The position numbers and the translations under genes are program-made. A stretch of 64,000 nucleotides of DNA from Gammaproteobacteria bacterium (GTDB lineage Bacteria > Pseudomonadota > Gammaproteobacteria > Steroidobacterales > Foliamicaceae). The stretch's first letter is position 1. Each line of letters opens with the position of its first letter. Of this stretch, positions 34,164-61,140 are shown piece by piece. The stretch spans positions 64,875-128,874 of the forward strand of contig VXSK01000020.1 in NCBI GenBank assembly GCA_009838035.1, in the 5' to 3' direction. A model generated the notes under the pieces. The model was not told where the DNA came from and ran no database searches. It was given only the letters and a program-made list of their open reading frames with translations.

Positions 34164-35039
34164 CTAAAGGTCGAACGGGATCGGGCGTTCGAATTCGCCC
34201 CAGCGCGGCTCCAGCAGTTCGGGGTATTCGCGCTCCATGCGGTCGAGAAACTCGCGCGGCAGTTCCGATGGGGAATTGATTTTCTTGCCATCCCAGAAGC
34301 CCGCCAGGTGGCCCATGCCTTCCGGCATCTTCAGCCAGGCGGGATGTTCGAAGGCGTAGTGTCCGCAGAAGTGGGCGGGCAGCGACGTGATGGTCTCGTT
34401 TGCGAACAGGTCGAATTCCACCCAGTTGCAGGAATTCTCGATGTGCGTGGCCGGCCAGTCCGGCGGAGCGCTGCGAACCAGGTCCATCTTGATCAGGTCG
34501 TTCTCGATCCGGAACTTGCGGTAGGGAGACTGGACGAACCCGTCGCCCGCCAGGTTGCGAAAACCGATCGGGCTTCCGATGGTTCCCGGATCGGTCAGCA
34601 GCGGCGTCACCGGCACCTCGACCCGCTCGCCCGTTATGGGATTGGTCACGGAATCGGTAAATTCGTTGGTGTGGAGGTCCCGCGGCAATGAAATATTGTG
34701 CGCGTGGATGCGGTAGTTGTAGTCGCCGAGATGGCGGAAATAGCTGTACTCGATACCCTCGTAGCGGATCAGGGGCTCCGGGCGCCGTCCCCCGGGGATG
34801 ACGAAGACCAGCCAGTGGTACCAGGTCAGGGTCGTGCCCTGCTCGTCGACCAGGTCCCGCTCCATGCGCATCTGCGCGCGAAACTCCTCCACCGGGTCGT
34901 CGAAATAGAGGAATTCGGAAACGACTGGGCTGACCGGCGGCTCGACCGATTTGGGTGCGGCGGCCTCAAGAACCCGTGCACCCAGCAGGGAGCCGGTCGC
35001 GCCGGCCGTGGCGGTAACGAAAGTGCGTCTGTTTACCAT
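34164..35039 (-). CDS. DUF1838 protein (paralogue 4)
   Basis: The product has 291 residues. It has a Tat-type signal (NRRTFVTATAGATGSLLG). The family motif DLHTNEFTDSVTNPITGERV is well preserved, and the end contains HPAWLKMPEGMGHLAGFWDG. It is convergent with paralogue 3 (15 bases apart). Its start overlaps the end of the GMC oxidoreductase gene by seven bases, so the two are one transcription unit and likely act on the same compound. Confidence 0.9.
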   Translation of the reverse strand: MVNRRTFVTATAGATGSLLGARVLEAAAPKSVEPPVSPVVSEFLYFDDPVEEFRAQMRMERDLVDEQGTTLTWYHWLVFVIPGGRRPEPLIRYEGIEYSYFRHLGDYNYRIHAHNISLPRDLHTNEFTDSVTNPITGERVEVPVTPLLTDPGTIGSPIGFRNLAGDGFVQSPYRKFRIENDLIKMDLVRSAPPDWPATHIENSCNWVEFDLFANETITSLPAHFCGHYAFEHPAWLKMPEGMGHLAGFWDGKKINSPSELPREFLDRMEREYPELLEPRWGEFERPIPFDL

Positions 35040-36670
35040 GGTTCGTCTTCTCCCTTGTCGTTTCGGCGCCCTTCGGGCTGGCCCTGACGGATGAAATCCG
35101 CCGCCCGTTCCCCGATCATCATCGCGGTCGCGTTGGTGTTGCCGCTGGTCAGGCTGGGCATCACCGAAGCGTCGGCGACGCGCAGCCCGTCGACGCCGCG
35201 AACGGTCAGGTCGGACCGGGTGACCGCGAGTCTGTCCGTGCCCATTTTGCACGTGCCGACGGGGTGGTAGCCGAGAAAGGCGGTACGGCGCAGGTAGTCG
35301 CGCCAATCGTCGCCGCTTTGCACCTCGGGCCCGGGCAGCCGCTCGCCGATTCGGTAGGGCGCGAACGCCGGGCCGTTGAGTATTTCACGGACCTGCCGGC
35401 ACCCCGCGATCAGCCGGCCCATGTCGTCGTCGTCCAGCAGCGCGTGAGAGATGACCGGCGGCGCATCCGGGTCCGCGCTGCGCAGTCGTATGCTGCCCCG
35501 GGACCGGGGATGGGACACGTTGATCGCGGCGGAGATGGCCGGCCGGTCATAAGGGATCACGCCTTCTTCCGAGAAGCTGAAGGCATATGGGCCGAGCTGC
35601 ACCTGGATGTCGGGCCGCGGCTCGCTCGGAGCGGATCGGATGAAGGCCACTGCGTGGGGGTACGGACTGGTGGCGGGGCCGCGACCGAACAGCAGCCAGT
35701 TCAATCCGTGCAAGACGATCTTCCAGCTGTTGATCTCGGTGTTGTAGGTGGACACGTTCACGTCGATGCCCACCATGCCCTCGGGGTGCTCCTGGAGGTT
35801 CGCGCCGACGCCCGGGAGGTCTTTTACGATTTCGATGCCGGCGTCGCGCAGTTGCCCGGCCGGGCCGATCCCGGACAGCATCAGCAACTTGGGCGAGGCG
35901 ATCGCGCCGGCGCACAGAATCACCTCGCGGCCGGCTTCGGCGCGATGCATACGGCCGCCTCTTCGATACTCCACGCCCGCGCAGCGGCCGTTCTCGAACA
36001 GCAGCCGCCGGCACACGCTGTGCGTACGGATGGCGAGATTCCGGCGCCGGCGCACGGGATGCAGATAAGCCCTCGCAGCGTTGTAGCGGCGGCCGCGCTG
36101 CTGATTCACTTCGGTATAAGCCACGCCTTCCTGGGTGCGGCCGTTGTAGTCGTCGTTGAGCGTCAATCCCGACTCGACGGCGGCCTGCACGAAGATGTGC
36201 GCCAGCGGATGCGTTGTACGCAGCGCCGCGGTGCGGACCGGACCGGTGCGGCCCCGATAACGGTCGTCTCCGAGAGGCGTGGATTCCATGCGCCTGAAGA
36301 ACGGCAGCACGTCGGCATAAGCCCATCCGGGGCAGCCTTCCGCGGCCCAGCGGTCAAAGTCGTAGTCCGCGCCGCGCACGTACAGCATGCCGTTGATCGA
36401 ACTGCTGCCGCCCAGGGTCTTGCCGGCCGGCCACAGGTCTACGCGATCGTTGCGGCTGGGATCGGGCTCCGCCTGATAACACCAGTCGAGCCGGGGATTG
36501 CCGATGGCGCGGATGATCGCCGCCGGCATCCGGATATACAGCGAGCGGTCGTCCCCGCCGGCCTCCAGCAGCAATACCCGCGTGTCCGGGTCCGCGGACA
36601 GGCGGTTCGCAACGGCACAGCCCGCCGAACCGGCGCCCACGACGATGTAGTCCCAGGAACTGACGGACAA
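35033..36670 (-). CDS. GMC-family FAD oxidoreductase (choline dehydrogenase-like)
   Basis: The product has 545 residues. The FAD-binding motif is GAGSAGCAVANRLS near the N-terminus, with the first GMC signature in GKTLGGSSSINGMLYVRG and the second in GAIASPKLLMLSGIGP. The catalytic pair is visible in GYHPVGTCKMG and SGNTNATAMMIGE. There is no signal peptide, so it is cytoplasmic. It should oxidise an alcohol and pass electrons to a quinone or other acceptor. A repeat element lies 64 bases upstream of its start (36734-36841). Among GMC members the substrate cannot be told from sequence. Confidence 0.95.
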   Translation of the reverse strand: MSVSSWDYIVVGAGSAGCAVANRLSADPDTRVLLLEAGGDDRSLYIRMPAAIIRAIGNPRLDWCYQAEPDPSRNDRVDLWPAGKTLGGSSSINGMLYVRGADYDFDRWAAEGCPGWAYADVLPFFRRMESTPLGDDRYRGRTGPVRTAALRTTHPLAHIFVQAAVESGLTLNDDYNGRTQEGVAYTEVNQQRGRRYNAARAYLHPVRRRRNLAIRTHSVCRRLLFENGRCAGVEYRRGGRMHRAEAGREVILCAGAIASPKLLMLSGIGPAGQLRDAGIEIVKDLPGVGANLQEHPEGMVGIDVNVSTYNTEINSWKIVLHGLNWLLFGRGPATSPYPHAVAFIRSAPSEPRPDIQVQLGPYAFSFSEEGVIPYDRPAISAAINVSHPRSRGSIRLRSADPDAPPVISHALLDDDDMGRLIAGCRQVREILNGPAFAPYRIGERLPGPEVQSGDDWRDYLRRTAFLGYHPVGTCKMGTDRLAVTRSDLTVRGVDGLRVADASVMPSLTSGNTNATAMMIGERAADFIRQGQPEGRRNDKGEDEPW

Positions 36671-36733
36671 AACCTCGCTGCTGATTCAGAAAAGCGGATC
36701 ATACGAGACGCGGCCGCAACTCCGCTAACCCTC

Positions 36734-36841
36734 GGTTCCTCTTGCACACCGGTTCCGGGAACCGCCAGCGAGCACATCCCTGTGGGCTCGGCGTCGGCAT
36801 CCTGCCTCCGACGTTCCCGGAACCGGTGTGCAAGAGGAACC
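36734..36841 (-). repeat. Variable-arm hairpin element 1
   Basis: Perfect 29-bp inverted-repeat arms at 36734-36762 and 36813-36841 enclose a 50-base core. Read on the minus strand, the core contains two small hairpins, GGCA-GGA-TGCC and CACA-GGGA-TGTG. The core matches elements at 36865, 38237, 48893 and 61034, but the arms are unique. The GGA-bearing strand is the sense strand of the GMC gene, whose start lies 64 bases downstream. Confidence 0.9.
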
Positions 36842-36864
36842 TTTAGCAGGCGGCGCCGGCTAAA

Positions 36865-36964
36865 GCCCTTCGTTCGTCCCCCTCCTCGTAGGAGCGTTGG
36901 AGCAGGACAGCGAGAATCGAGCCAGGGATGGCGTCTCCAACGAGGAGGGGGACGAACGAAGGGC
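36865..36964 (+). repeat. Variable-arm hairpin element 2
   Basis: Perfect 24-bp arms at 36865-36888 and 36941-36964 enclose a 52-base core with the hairpin GCCA-GGGA-TGGC at 36921-36932 and a degenerate first hairpin around GCAGGACAGC. The left arm is pyrimidine-rich. The core is nearly identical to element 3 at 38237. It ends 44 bases before the permease start and is in the sense orientation for that gene. Confidence 0.9.
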
Positions 36965-37008
36965 GAGGAAGCACGCGAACGAAGGACTAATGGTCTATTC
37001 TTTGCAGA

Positions 37009-38217
37009 ATGTTCTTTCTTGACGTGCTGAGGCAGGCGCTGGAATCGATCGGCGCCAACCTGTTTCGCGCCCTGCTGACGATGCTGGGCATGATCATCGG
37101 CGTCGCGGCGGTGGTGACCATGGTTTCGCTGGGTACCGGCGCGCAGCGTGCGGTGGAGGAACAGATGGAGGCGCTGGGGGCCGACATCCTGGCGGTCACC
37201 AATTCCCAGCGGCGGTTCTGGGGCGTGTCGCTGGAGAACAGCAGTCTGGGCGTGGACGACGCCTCGGCGCTGCGAAGGGACGCGCGCCATCTTGAGCGAG
37301 TGGTGCCCAGGATCACTCAGCGCCTGCAGTTCGAGTTCGGCAACAGCAACACCCGCGTTGAGCTGATCGGATCCACCACCGAGTATCCCGAGCTGCACCG
37401 CTACGAAATTGCCGCCGGGAGGATGTTCGTTCCGCAGGAAGAGGAGGCGCGCCTGCGCGTGGCGGTGCTCGGAAGCGAGGTTCCCGGGAAGCTGGAAACC
37501 ACGGCGAGCGCGCTGCTGGGGCAGAGCGTGCTGTTGGGCGGGGTTCCGTTCACTGTGATCGGCGTCCTGGAGGAAACCGGCTCGGTCGGCATGCAGAATC
37601 CCAATGACGATGTGCTTGTGCCGCTGTCCACGGCGCAGTACCGGGTAACCGGCAGTGACCGGCTCGAAAGCATGGACGTGCAGATCCGCTCCGGCTCGGC
37701 AGTGGAGCAGGCGCTGGTGGACGTGGAGCGCATTCTGCGCCGCGAGCACCGGATCCGCCCTGGCGAGGACAACGATTTCGGGATCCTGGACCGCAAGCAG
37801 TTTCTGGAGGTTCGCGAGGAAACCACCCGTATCTTCGCCCTGCTGCTTCCGGCAATCGCGGGGGTCAGCCTGGTGGTGGGCGGAATCGGCATCATGAACA
37901 TCATGCTCGTGACGGTGGCAGAACGCACCCGCGAAATCGGCGTGCGCCGGGCGATAGGCGCGACCCGCGGCGCGATCATGTCGCAGATCCTGGTCGAATC
38001 CTCGCTGCTGTGCCTGCTCGGCGGCTTGCTGGGCGTGGCCGCCGGCTGGGGAGCCTCGAAACTGCTGGCGGAGTTCTTCAACTGGCAGACCGTGGTGGCG
38101 GCGGAATCGATCGGGGTCGGACTGGGCTGCAGCCTGCTGATCGGCATCGTCTTCGGCCTGTGGCCCGCCCGCCGCGCCTCAACGCTGGACCCCATCGAAG
38201 CCCTGCGCCACGAATAA
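37009..38217 (+). CDS. MacB-type ABC transporter permease, orphan
   Basis: The product has 402 residues. It has the MacB layout: one N-terminal helix (about 20-40, LLTMLGMIIGVAAVVTM), a large periplasmic domain (about 50-270) and three C-terminal helices of the FtsX fold with the signature REIGVRRAIGATR. Usually this subunit is encoded with an ATPase and a membrane-fusion protein; neither is present on either side here. It is flanked instead by two hairpin elements with almost the same core (36865 and 38237). It would work with an ATPase encoded elsewhere. Substrates of this family range from peptides to macrolides and lipoproteins. Confidence 0.92.
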   Translation: MFFLDVLRQALESIGANLFRALLTMLGMIIGVAAVVTMVSLGTGAQRAVEEQMEALGADILAVTNSQRRFWGVSLENSSLGVDDASALRRDARHLERVVPRITQRLQFEFGNSNTRVELIGSTTEYPELHRYEIAAGRMFVPQEEEARLRVAVLGSEVPGKLETTASALLGQSVLLGGVPFTVIGVLEETGSVGMQNPNDDVLVPLSTAQYRVTGSDRLESMDVQIRSGSAVEQALVDVERILRREHRIRPGEDNDFGILDRKQFLEVREETTRIFALLLPAIAGVSLVVGGIGIMNIMLVTVAERTREIGVRRAIGATRGAIMSQILVESSLLCLLGGLLGVAAGWGASKLLAEFFNWQTVVAAESIGVGLGCSLLIGIVFGLWPARRASTLDPIEALRHE

Positions 38218-38236: not shown

Positions 38237-38334
38237 GCCTTTTTCCTGCCCGTCCCGTCAGGGAGCGTTGGAGCAGGGACAGCGAGAATCGAGCCAGGAT
38301 GGCGTCTCCCGGACGGGACGGGCAGGAAAAAGGC
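38237..38334 (+). repeat. Variable-arm hairpin element 3
   Basis: Perfect 23-bp arms at 38237-38259 and 38312-38334 enclose a 52-base core almost identical to that of element 2, with the hairpin GCCA-GGA-TGGC at 38293-38303. The arms share no sequence with those of the other elements. It starts 19 bases after the permease stop, in sense orientation to it, and lies before the end of the convergent MFS gene, so it may also act as a terminator. Confidence 0.9.
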
Positions 38335-48892: not shown

Positions 48893-49012
48893 AATCGCCG
48901 CGAGCGCAAACCACCTTTCCCAGGACACGCCTACAAGCACATCCCTGTGGGCTCGGTGTCGGCATCCTGCCTCCAACGTTCCTGGGAAAGGTGGTTTGCG
49001 CTCGCGGCGATT
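48893..49012 (-). repeat. Variable-arm hairpin element 4
   Basis: Perfect 33-bp arms at 48893-48925 and 48980-49012, the longest of the set, enclose a 54-base core. On the minus strand the core has hairpins GGCA-GGA-TGCC (48961-48971) and CACA-GGGA-TGTG (48938-48949). The core matches element 1 closely and the arms do not. It begins five bases after the stop of the serine-hydrolase fusion gene and lies before the receptor gene, both on the minus strand, so it is sense to both. Confidence 0.9.
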
Positions 49013-61033: not shown

Positions 61034-61140
61034 GCCATTTCTTTGCTCCCTTCTTCAGGGAGTATTGGAGCCAGGGATGGCGGAGCAAGCTACAGGGATG
61101 TATTCATGCGTCTCCCGGAAGAAGGGAGCAAAGAAATGGC
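61034..61140 (+). repeat. Variable-arm hairpin element 5
   Basis: Perfect 23-bp arms at 61034-61056 and 61118-61140 enclose a 61-base core with two clean hairpins, GCCA-GGGA-TGGC (61070-61081) and TACA-GGGA-TGTA (61091-61102). The second matches 11 of 12 positions of the published CsrA SELEX consensus RUACARGGAUGU. It lies between two plus-strand genes, in the sense orientation, ending 17 bases before the dehydrogenase start. Confidence 0.9.

Follow-up and report, generated by a model that had tools for sequence, protein, structure and literature searches.

REPINs are hairpin-forming, non-autonomous repeats dispersed between genes, in which the paired REP ends are conserved and the middle varies. 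MITEs are likewise short and non-autonomous, with shared terminal inverted repeats and a target-site duplication. The sponge RNAs CsrB, CsrC and RsmX/Y/Z carry several GGA-loop hairpins per RNA. For the REP superfamilies, a stem of 5–13 bp with a loop of 2–20 nt has been given for the GTAG type, and a stem of 8–9 bp with a loop of 4–5 nt for the CGTC type (PMC3733652). The SELEX consensus of CsrA is RUACARGGAUGU, in which ACA and GGA are invariant and the loop of a hairpin contains the GGA (PMC4347634). In Beggiatoaceae, intergenic TAACTGA repeats have been proposed to act after transcription, with canonical CsrA binding judged unlikely (PMC4679880). Template switching in yeast genes homogenizes inverted-repeat arms and inverts spacers (PMC8604942), and has been suggested as the process by which RNA hairpins arise and persist (PMC8794818).

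Here, we analyze a pair of hairpins within a 64-kb window (64,000 nucleotides, the whole stretch of DNA studied) and the repeat family to which they belong. The family is REP-like but, by the features tested, non-REP: it combines a fixed core with an apparently self-renewing stem, and the core can be inverted. The pair itself is the family's usual head-to-head dimer in its least usual place, between divergent genes.

Results

A head-to-head hairpin pair between divergent genes

Two near-perfect hairpins occupy the interval 36671–37008, the gap between the reading frame of a GMC oxidoreductase gene (35033–36670, minus strand, beginning at 36670) and the ATG at 37009 of a MacB/FtsX-type permease gene (37009–38217, plus strand), whose closest named relative is a Woeseiaceae MAG protein with 55% identity. 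Element 1 (36734–36841, minus strand) has a core of type C and 29-bp arms (36734–36762 and 36813–36841) that are 100% complementary and enclose a 50-nt loop; element 2 (36865–36964, plus strand) has a core of type B and 30-bp arms (36865–36894 and 36935–36964) with one mismatch (97% complementary) around a 40-nt loop. They score 78.9 and 70.1 bits, respectively, with the covariance model R1 introduced below. The spacer (36842–36864), read from the sequence, forms a TTTAGC...GCTAAA palindrome. The inverted pair joined by CTTTAGC (36841–36847) and GCTAAAG (36859–36865) that an earlier note had recognized was recovered in full.

Each loop contains two mini-hairpins. In element 1, mini-hairpin 1, GGCAGGATGCC (36796–36806, minus strand), has a helix that covaries over 37 aligned cores, and mini-hairpin 2, CACAGGGATGTG (36773–36784, minus strand), is assigned from fold and covariation. 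In element 2, mini-hairpin 1 (36895–36912, plus strand) is predicted from the fold as CGUUG/CAGCG with GAGCAGGA in the loop, mini-hairpin 2, GCCAGGGATGGC (36921–36932, plus strand), is assigned from fold and covariation, and a 3' tail (36965–36989, plus strand) follows that, by junction reading, is part of the segment missing in sister genomes. The whole elements fold with z-scores of −9.95 (element 1) and −10.85 (element 2), with none of 200 shuffles as good in either case; folded alone, the loops gain little or nothing over shuffles (z −0.01 and −1.98, respectively). In the whole-element fold, the GGA of mini-hairpin 1 of element 1 is in the loop, whereas the loop folded alone favors a different pairing.

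Rfam 15 yielded no match at the gathering threshold across the 64-kb window, and at a relaxed threshold nine of the 12 matches at the pair's locus were microRNA precursor families. Intrinsic terminators were considered and rejected, as the terminator scan found none at the pair and a T tract is missing from the tail GRGATCGAAGCG, itself only weakly conserved. A sigma-70 scan of 36600–37100 with a simple model found no site, an uninformative outcome given that only 0.1 was expected.

The pair's site could be read across in G001, G002, G004, G005, G006 and G007. The genomes G002, G006 and G007 have the same gene pair, separated by about 58 bp as counted in window coordinates, and no hairpin pair; their flanks join directly at GAGAC|ATGG, without window bases 36710–36989 (280 bp, comprising the pair and its outer tails, as delimited by blast and junction reading of orthologous loci). 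The left edge of this segment is uncertain by about 8–12 bases because G001 keeps 12 bases resembling its start. At the same site, G004 has a different sequence and no element, and in G005 the GMC and permease genes flank about 8 kb of different DNA (G005:C50:10660–18628; L222, L275). At least five related pairs are found at other sites in G000, G005 and G006, with 90–96% identity, and from these copies elsewhere we infer insertion rather than loss. No target duplication was seen at the GAGAC|ATGG junction, few sites of the family being base-clean. In the short gap of two sister genomes (L223 and L224, near position 1500), a small palindrome, GATTCCGCAAAGCGGATC, might be an operator; read by eye, it is imperfect in the window (36683–36701).

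The window holds further copies. A third element (type B, 38237–38334, plus strand) has an orthologous copy in G006, and its site is without an element in G001, G002, G004 and G007. The site of a fourth (type C, 48893–49012, minus strand) is without an element in G004, G006 and G007; the core is inverted in G001, and G005 has compensated stem differences. A fifth (type A, 61034–61140, plus strand) scores 94.7 bits with R1.

A dispersed family with conserved cores and copy-specific stems

The motif CAGGGATG occurs 115 times in the genome versus 24 times for a reversed control, a contrast that alone says little because 62 of its sites in the fetched loci lie outside elements and 40 inside. Around the sites of two core patterns (for the first, 100 of 115, among the matches listed), the genome forms 45 hairpins, whose three related loops define the types A, B and C. 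Their stems vary by copy, many sharing a loose consensus and others being wholly different, and all are almost perfectly complementary. From 203 loci of the genus (1.49 Mb), we gathered 186 distinct elements, using the stem and loose motifs of the core as criteria; one or more of these elements (L291 10286) have another loop. The arms have a median length of 29 bp (range 16–46), and the conserved core, usually 40–55 nt, comprises two mini-hairpins with CA(N)GGA loops. With no sequence filter, 171 of 184 distinct inverted repeats in the genus loci (arms of at least 20 bp, loop 35–110) carry the core motif, and 180 have at least one A(N)GGA; as these loci were chosen by core matches, the figures give no genome-wide rate. 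Across the genus set, 67 element-by-genome combinations were scored empty under a loose flank criterion, few of them base-clean.

The covariance model R1, built from 34 sequences, has matches in all nine genus genomes, 28–149 in each (with at most 150 candidates scored per genome, where a palindrome may count on both strands), and none in 10 non-genus genomes of the order panel. In a class-wide panel, with at most 12 candidates scored per genome and stricter filters, 67 of 369 genomes (own genome included) and 60 of 272 genera have matches; G291, with one, is the single other genome of the order among them. For 31 class-wide copies (six from G325 and four from G255), selected as high-scoring matches with a GGA pattern, the cores are alike and the stems unrelated, even within one genome. 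Because the GGA pattern had been used to pick these cores, the count was repeated without it: an inverted repeat is present in 37 of 39 class loci, and CA(N)GGANG in 38 of 39 repeats. Plasmids and phages gave no match to one core, taken from L217, and two viral contigs match one core pattern. We found no description of the family in Rfam or the openly licensed literature, which does not establish its absence from print.

Several variants accompany the typical copies. One mini-hairpin, the first in A types and the second in B types, is in some cases swapped for a longer, unrelated hairpin without GGA (G000: L065 580–720, L075 667–793, L076 644–769, L081 594–720 and L079 750–863; G006: L263 7210–7330; G005: L282 11926–12045, L294 6090–6209, L297 5693–5824 and L289 8232). 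Long-stem hairpins with a different loop share GGCGGGACGCGCC or nearly so (L291 10286–10394 and L289 497–594 in G005; L324 1043–1140 in G001), and the one in L291 is cleanly missing in G001 (L336), where 4 nt lie between intact flanks; these hairpins are possibly a second family of the same habit. Type B sequences also stand within the first 170 bases of the G000 contigs C6, C11, C12, C13 and C23, so the repeats probably break the assembly.

Elements favor gene 3' ends and show no sense bias

We classified 174 of the 186 elements by their neighboring genes, which were called with a simple codon score trained on the window; three were too far from genes, and nine lacked enough flank or gene calls. 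Of these, 53 are co-directional sense, 49 co-directional antisense, 55 convergent and 17, the rarest class, divergent. There is no sense bias (p = 0.77), and convergent positions exceed divergent ones (p = 8e-6); the simple gene calls and the counting of orthologous elements per genome make these p-values optimistic. The median distance is 22–23 nt to a gene 3' end versus 52–63 nt to a 5' end, and none of the elements checked lies inside a called gene. Neighboring elements are head to head in 19 of 21 pairs, with the other two in tandem, and the 18 head-to-head pairs with gene calls comprise eight convergent, seven co-directional and three divergent cases, the pair at 36671–37008 among the last. 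That each core is sense to its own gene, as had been claimed from the sequence, is true at this locus because a head-to-head pair happens to sit between divergent genes; 15 of the 18 pairs are not divergent. In G004, which is a single contig, no replication-strand bias is apparent, with 20 elements on the leading and 24 on the lagging strand (the terminus was taken opposite dnaA, and one of 45 listed matches was dropped as a palindrome's other strand). Within this chromosome (G004:C1), 29 of the 44 elements lie in the third from 1.089 to 2.19 Mb.

Stem changes are mostly compensated, and cores probably flip

Among 5354 arm pairs in the 186 elements, 5255 are Watson-Crick, 31 G-T, 10 A-C, 39 A-G (mostly 4–5 bases from the loop) and 19 other. 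G-T exceeds A-C (p = 0.0015), hinting at selection on the hairpin of the sense strand too. Orthologous sites filled in both genomes provided 70 pairs, with 12 further pairs left out and a median flank identity of 92.7% over all 70. A strict set comprises 31 pairs whose cores have equal length and differ at no more than three positions, and whose stems agree over at least half of their length. Of its 911 stem positions, 821 are unchanged, 66 differ in a compensated manner, 21 on one side and three otherwise; the cores of this set differ at 24 of 1517 positions. A wide set of 47 same-orientation pairs, at some of which the original copy has probably given way to a different one, has 223 compensated, 29 single and seven other changes in 1361 stem positions. 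Ectopic conversion and template switching are counted together in these figures, and p-values are too small because neither the ortholog pairs nor the elements shared by several genomes count as independent observations. The fourth element of the window (48893–49012) provides an example: G000 and G005 differ at seven of 31 stem positions, all compensated. Here, the outer 8 nt of one arm also match the flank of the element-free site in G007, with one mismatch in G004 and two in G006.

In 22 of the 70 ortholog pairs, the core orientation is opposite. Stems are at least 69% alike in 11 of these (about seven sites), so the loop itself probably turned; six of these likely flips fall within the strict set, and five have unequal cores or eight core differences. 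At one site (G000 L073 versus G007 L117), the elements are identical save for their opposite orientation. The other 11 opposite-orientation pairs look more like different copies at the same site. Together, compensated stem changes and core inversions fit the marks of replication template switching between the arms, and the stems apparently stay almost perfectly paired because each half keeps being recopied from the other.

The core resembles CsrA-binding hairpins

To compare cores, 31 class-wide and six genus sequences were aligned. The inner stem end and mini-hairpins are paired in 93.5% of cells, and both sides have changed in 94 cells versus 26.2 in shuffles (0 of 500 as many). The C, A, G, G, A and closing G of mini-hairpin 2 do not vary at all; for mini-hairpin 1, this holds for the C, the A and one G, with the rest of GGA at 90% or above. 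Mini-hairpin 2 resembles the CsrA SELEX consensus RUACARGGAUGU, and GGA is presented in a hairpin loop as in CsrA/RsmA-binding RNA. The exact SELEX 12-mer occurs in five of 31 class cores and none of 186 genus cores, and TACARGGATGT in 10 of 31 and 21 of 186, respectively. Two or more ANGGA are present in 129 of 186 genus cores and in 30 of 31 class cores, the latter set being GGA-selected. A csrA gene was found in all nine genus genomes and in eight of the 10 order-panel genomes from outside the genus. Of the 66 other class genomes with elements, 61 have the gene (53 of 54 among those of good quality); G212, which is 98% complete, has eight element matches and no csrA match. As the mini-hairpins resemble CsrA/RsmA sites, the elements may be CsrA-binding RNA, which is the most attractive of the possible readings of the conserved core.

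Discussion

We consider it likely that the two hairpins represent a head-to-head dimer from a mobile, REP-like family and entered as one unit of about 280 bp, with stems recopied by template switching and a core kept by selection. In this scheme, one such unit would have been inserted between the GMC and permease genes. During replication, one stem arm would be copied from the other, keeping the stems perfect; the same template switching could spread stem copying into flanking DNA, and its between-strand form would flip the core. Maintenance of the core would reflect its recognition, most likely at the RNA level by a protein that binds GGA hairpins, such as CsrA/RsmA, or alternatively by a mobilizing enzyme acting on the DNA hairpin.

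In the wide sense, the elements behave like REP sequences: they are high-copy extragenic palindromes near 3' ends, often as head-to-head dimers. As in the GTAG and CGTC superfamilies (PMC3733652), they lie between mostly convergent or co-directional genes, close behind 3' ends, head-to-head dimers predominate, and the CGTC type also occurs without a dedicated transposase. Unlike those repeats, they have a median stem of 29 bp rather than 5–13 or 8–9 bp, and a loop of 40–55 nt with two mini-hairpins rather than one of 2–20 or 4–5 nt; moreover, the stem sequence is copy-specific, the core is conserved and its orientation flips (PMC3733652). The short stem and loop of REP sequences are thus absent (arms 16–46 bp). 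So is the unpaired GTAG end: some copies read GTA|GCC, but in 115 elements anchored on GCC strong conservation is limited to A beside the stem (82%) and C five bases out (76%), with G at −3 in 39% and T at −2 in 33%. Nor was a RAYT gene flanked by the repeat found in the nine genus genomes, none of which has a Y1_Tnp match. Compared with REPINs, which are dispersed non-autonomous hairpins as well, the arrangement is reversed, the middle being conserved and the paired ends varying. The elements are like MITEs in being short, non-autonomous and differently present between genomes; they differ in that their inverted repeats are copy-specific rather than shared (many genus arms have a loose consensus) and no partner transposase was found. 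The junction at the site of the pair shows no target duplication, although few sites of the family are base-clean.

At the level of mechanism, the closest parallels are inverted repeats under template switching, which likewise have homogenized arms, multi-base compensated changes and inverted spacers; those cases are single loci in yeast genes and RNA genes, whereas here a dispersed family has a conserved spacer (PMC8604942, PMC8794818). As for RNA-level parallels, Csr/Rsm sponges and CsrA target hairpins also present GGA in a hairpin loop, several per RNA (PMC4347634). The present elements, unlike the sponges, are many scattered intergenic copies with two hairpins each on a long stem, have no Rfam match in the window, and are putative RNAs. 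The TAACTGA repeats are similarly abundant and intergenic, and CsrA was considered for them too, but they are direct heptamer repeats without GGA (PMC4679880).

Other explanations account for parts of these observations. The earlier note had placed the promoters of both genes next to or inside the hairpins, giving each mRNA a structured 5' leader. One part of this stands: the hairpins take up most of the space between the divergent genes, so that any transcript initiated outside them would have a strongly structured leader. Both elements also fold very stably, with cores in sense at 63 and 44 nt from the called gene starts. A built-in promoter or leader arrangement is not supported, as G002, G006 and G007 keep the gene pair without hairpins. 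It is unlikely that the pair serves either flanking gene as a dedicated 5' leader, and regulation of both mRNAs in cis is highly improbable given that the 174 elements show no sense preference, lie closer to gene 3' than 5' ends (median 22–23 versus 52–63 nt) and form mostly non-divergent head-to-head pairs (15 of 18). For the family as a whole, a role as 5' leaders was rejected on the missing sense bias and the preference for 3' ends. Mobilization by a REP-associated tyrosine transposase, making this a RAYT-driven REP or REPIN family, would agree with the REP-like placement and the 19 of 21 head-to-head neighbors, and the RAYT domain Y1_Tnp is found somewhat more often in class genomes with elements (53 of 66) than in the others (187 of 302). 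Y1_Tnp, however, has no match in any of the nine genus genomes (one of which is only 66% complete), just one of 30 Y1_Tnp loci in genomes with elements lies within about 1.5 kb of an R1 match, and G004 shows no replication-strand bias (20 versus 24). RAYT/REP membership was rejected for the genus on the first two of these results, the class-wide association is weak, and we regard this reading overall as very unlikely.

Perfect stems might also be kept solely by selection on RNA structure, through ordinary point mutations and later compensation. The excess of G-T over A-C mismatches (31 versus 10) and the covariation of the mini-hairpins themselves are in line with such selection, yet G-T accounts for only 31 of 5354 stem pairs, a small share for an RNA helix in which wobble pairs are tolerated. 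In the strict set, compensated changes are more numerous than those on one side (66 versus 21), and the core inversions and the match of a stem to its target flank suggest a copying mechanism, all of which makes selection alone an unlikely account. A further reading, compatible with the template-switching dimer favored above, concerns the function of the core: as candidate CsrA/RsmA-binding RNA elements, each transcribed core would offer two GGA hairpins to a CsrA dimer, and copies would act as mRNA-borne sites or, once the long stem has been cut, as a dispersed sponge. We put this forward tentatively, as a possibility that the sequences suggest. It draws on the likeness of the mini-hairpins to the SELEX consensus, including the exact 12-mer in five of 31 class cores, on CA(N)GGANG in 38 of 39 class inverted repeats without a GGA filter, on the covarying mini-hairpin stems, on the presence of csrA in nine of nine genus and 61 of 66 other element-bearing genomes, and on the G-T excess in the stems. 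Against it, the elements favor neither sense nor antisense orientation to genes (53 versus 49), csrA is common anyway (eight of 10 non-genus order genomes), G212 combines eight element matches with no csrA match, the exact 12-mer is found in none of 186 genus cores, some copies carry a hairpin without GGA in place of one mini-hairpin, and the isolated loops have little or no folding advantage over shuffled sequences (z −0.01 and −1.98).

Judged by sequence, a bolder extension appears doubtful, namely that a mobile family found across much of the class carries near-optimal pairs of CsrA/RsmA hairpins to many genomic sites, on self-recopied stems that can adopt nearly any sequence, with the copies jointly forming a heritable, copy-number-tunable CsrA sponge or regulon that could be switched per site by core inversion.

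What identifies REP-type families is the conservation of their paired part; here, the middle is kept and the stem apparently renewed. The family thereby offers natural multi-locus material for watching template switching homogenize and flip bacterial inverted repeats, and it carries the caution that compensatory stem changes are no proof of RNA function. The conserved GGA mini-hairpins, in turn, pose the question whether a widespread repeat feeds CsrA-binding sites into genomes.
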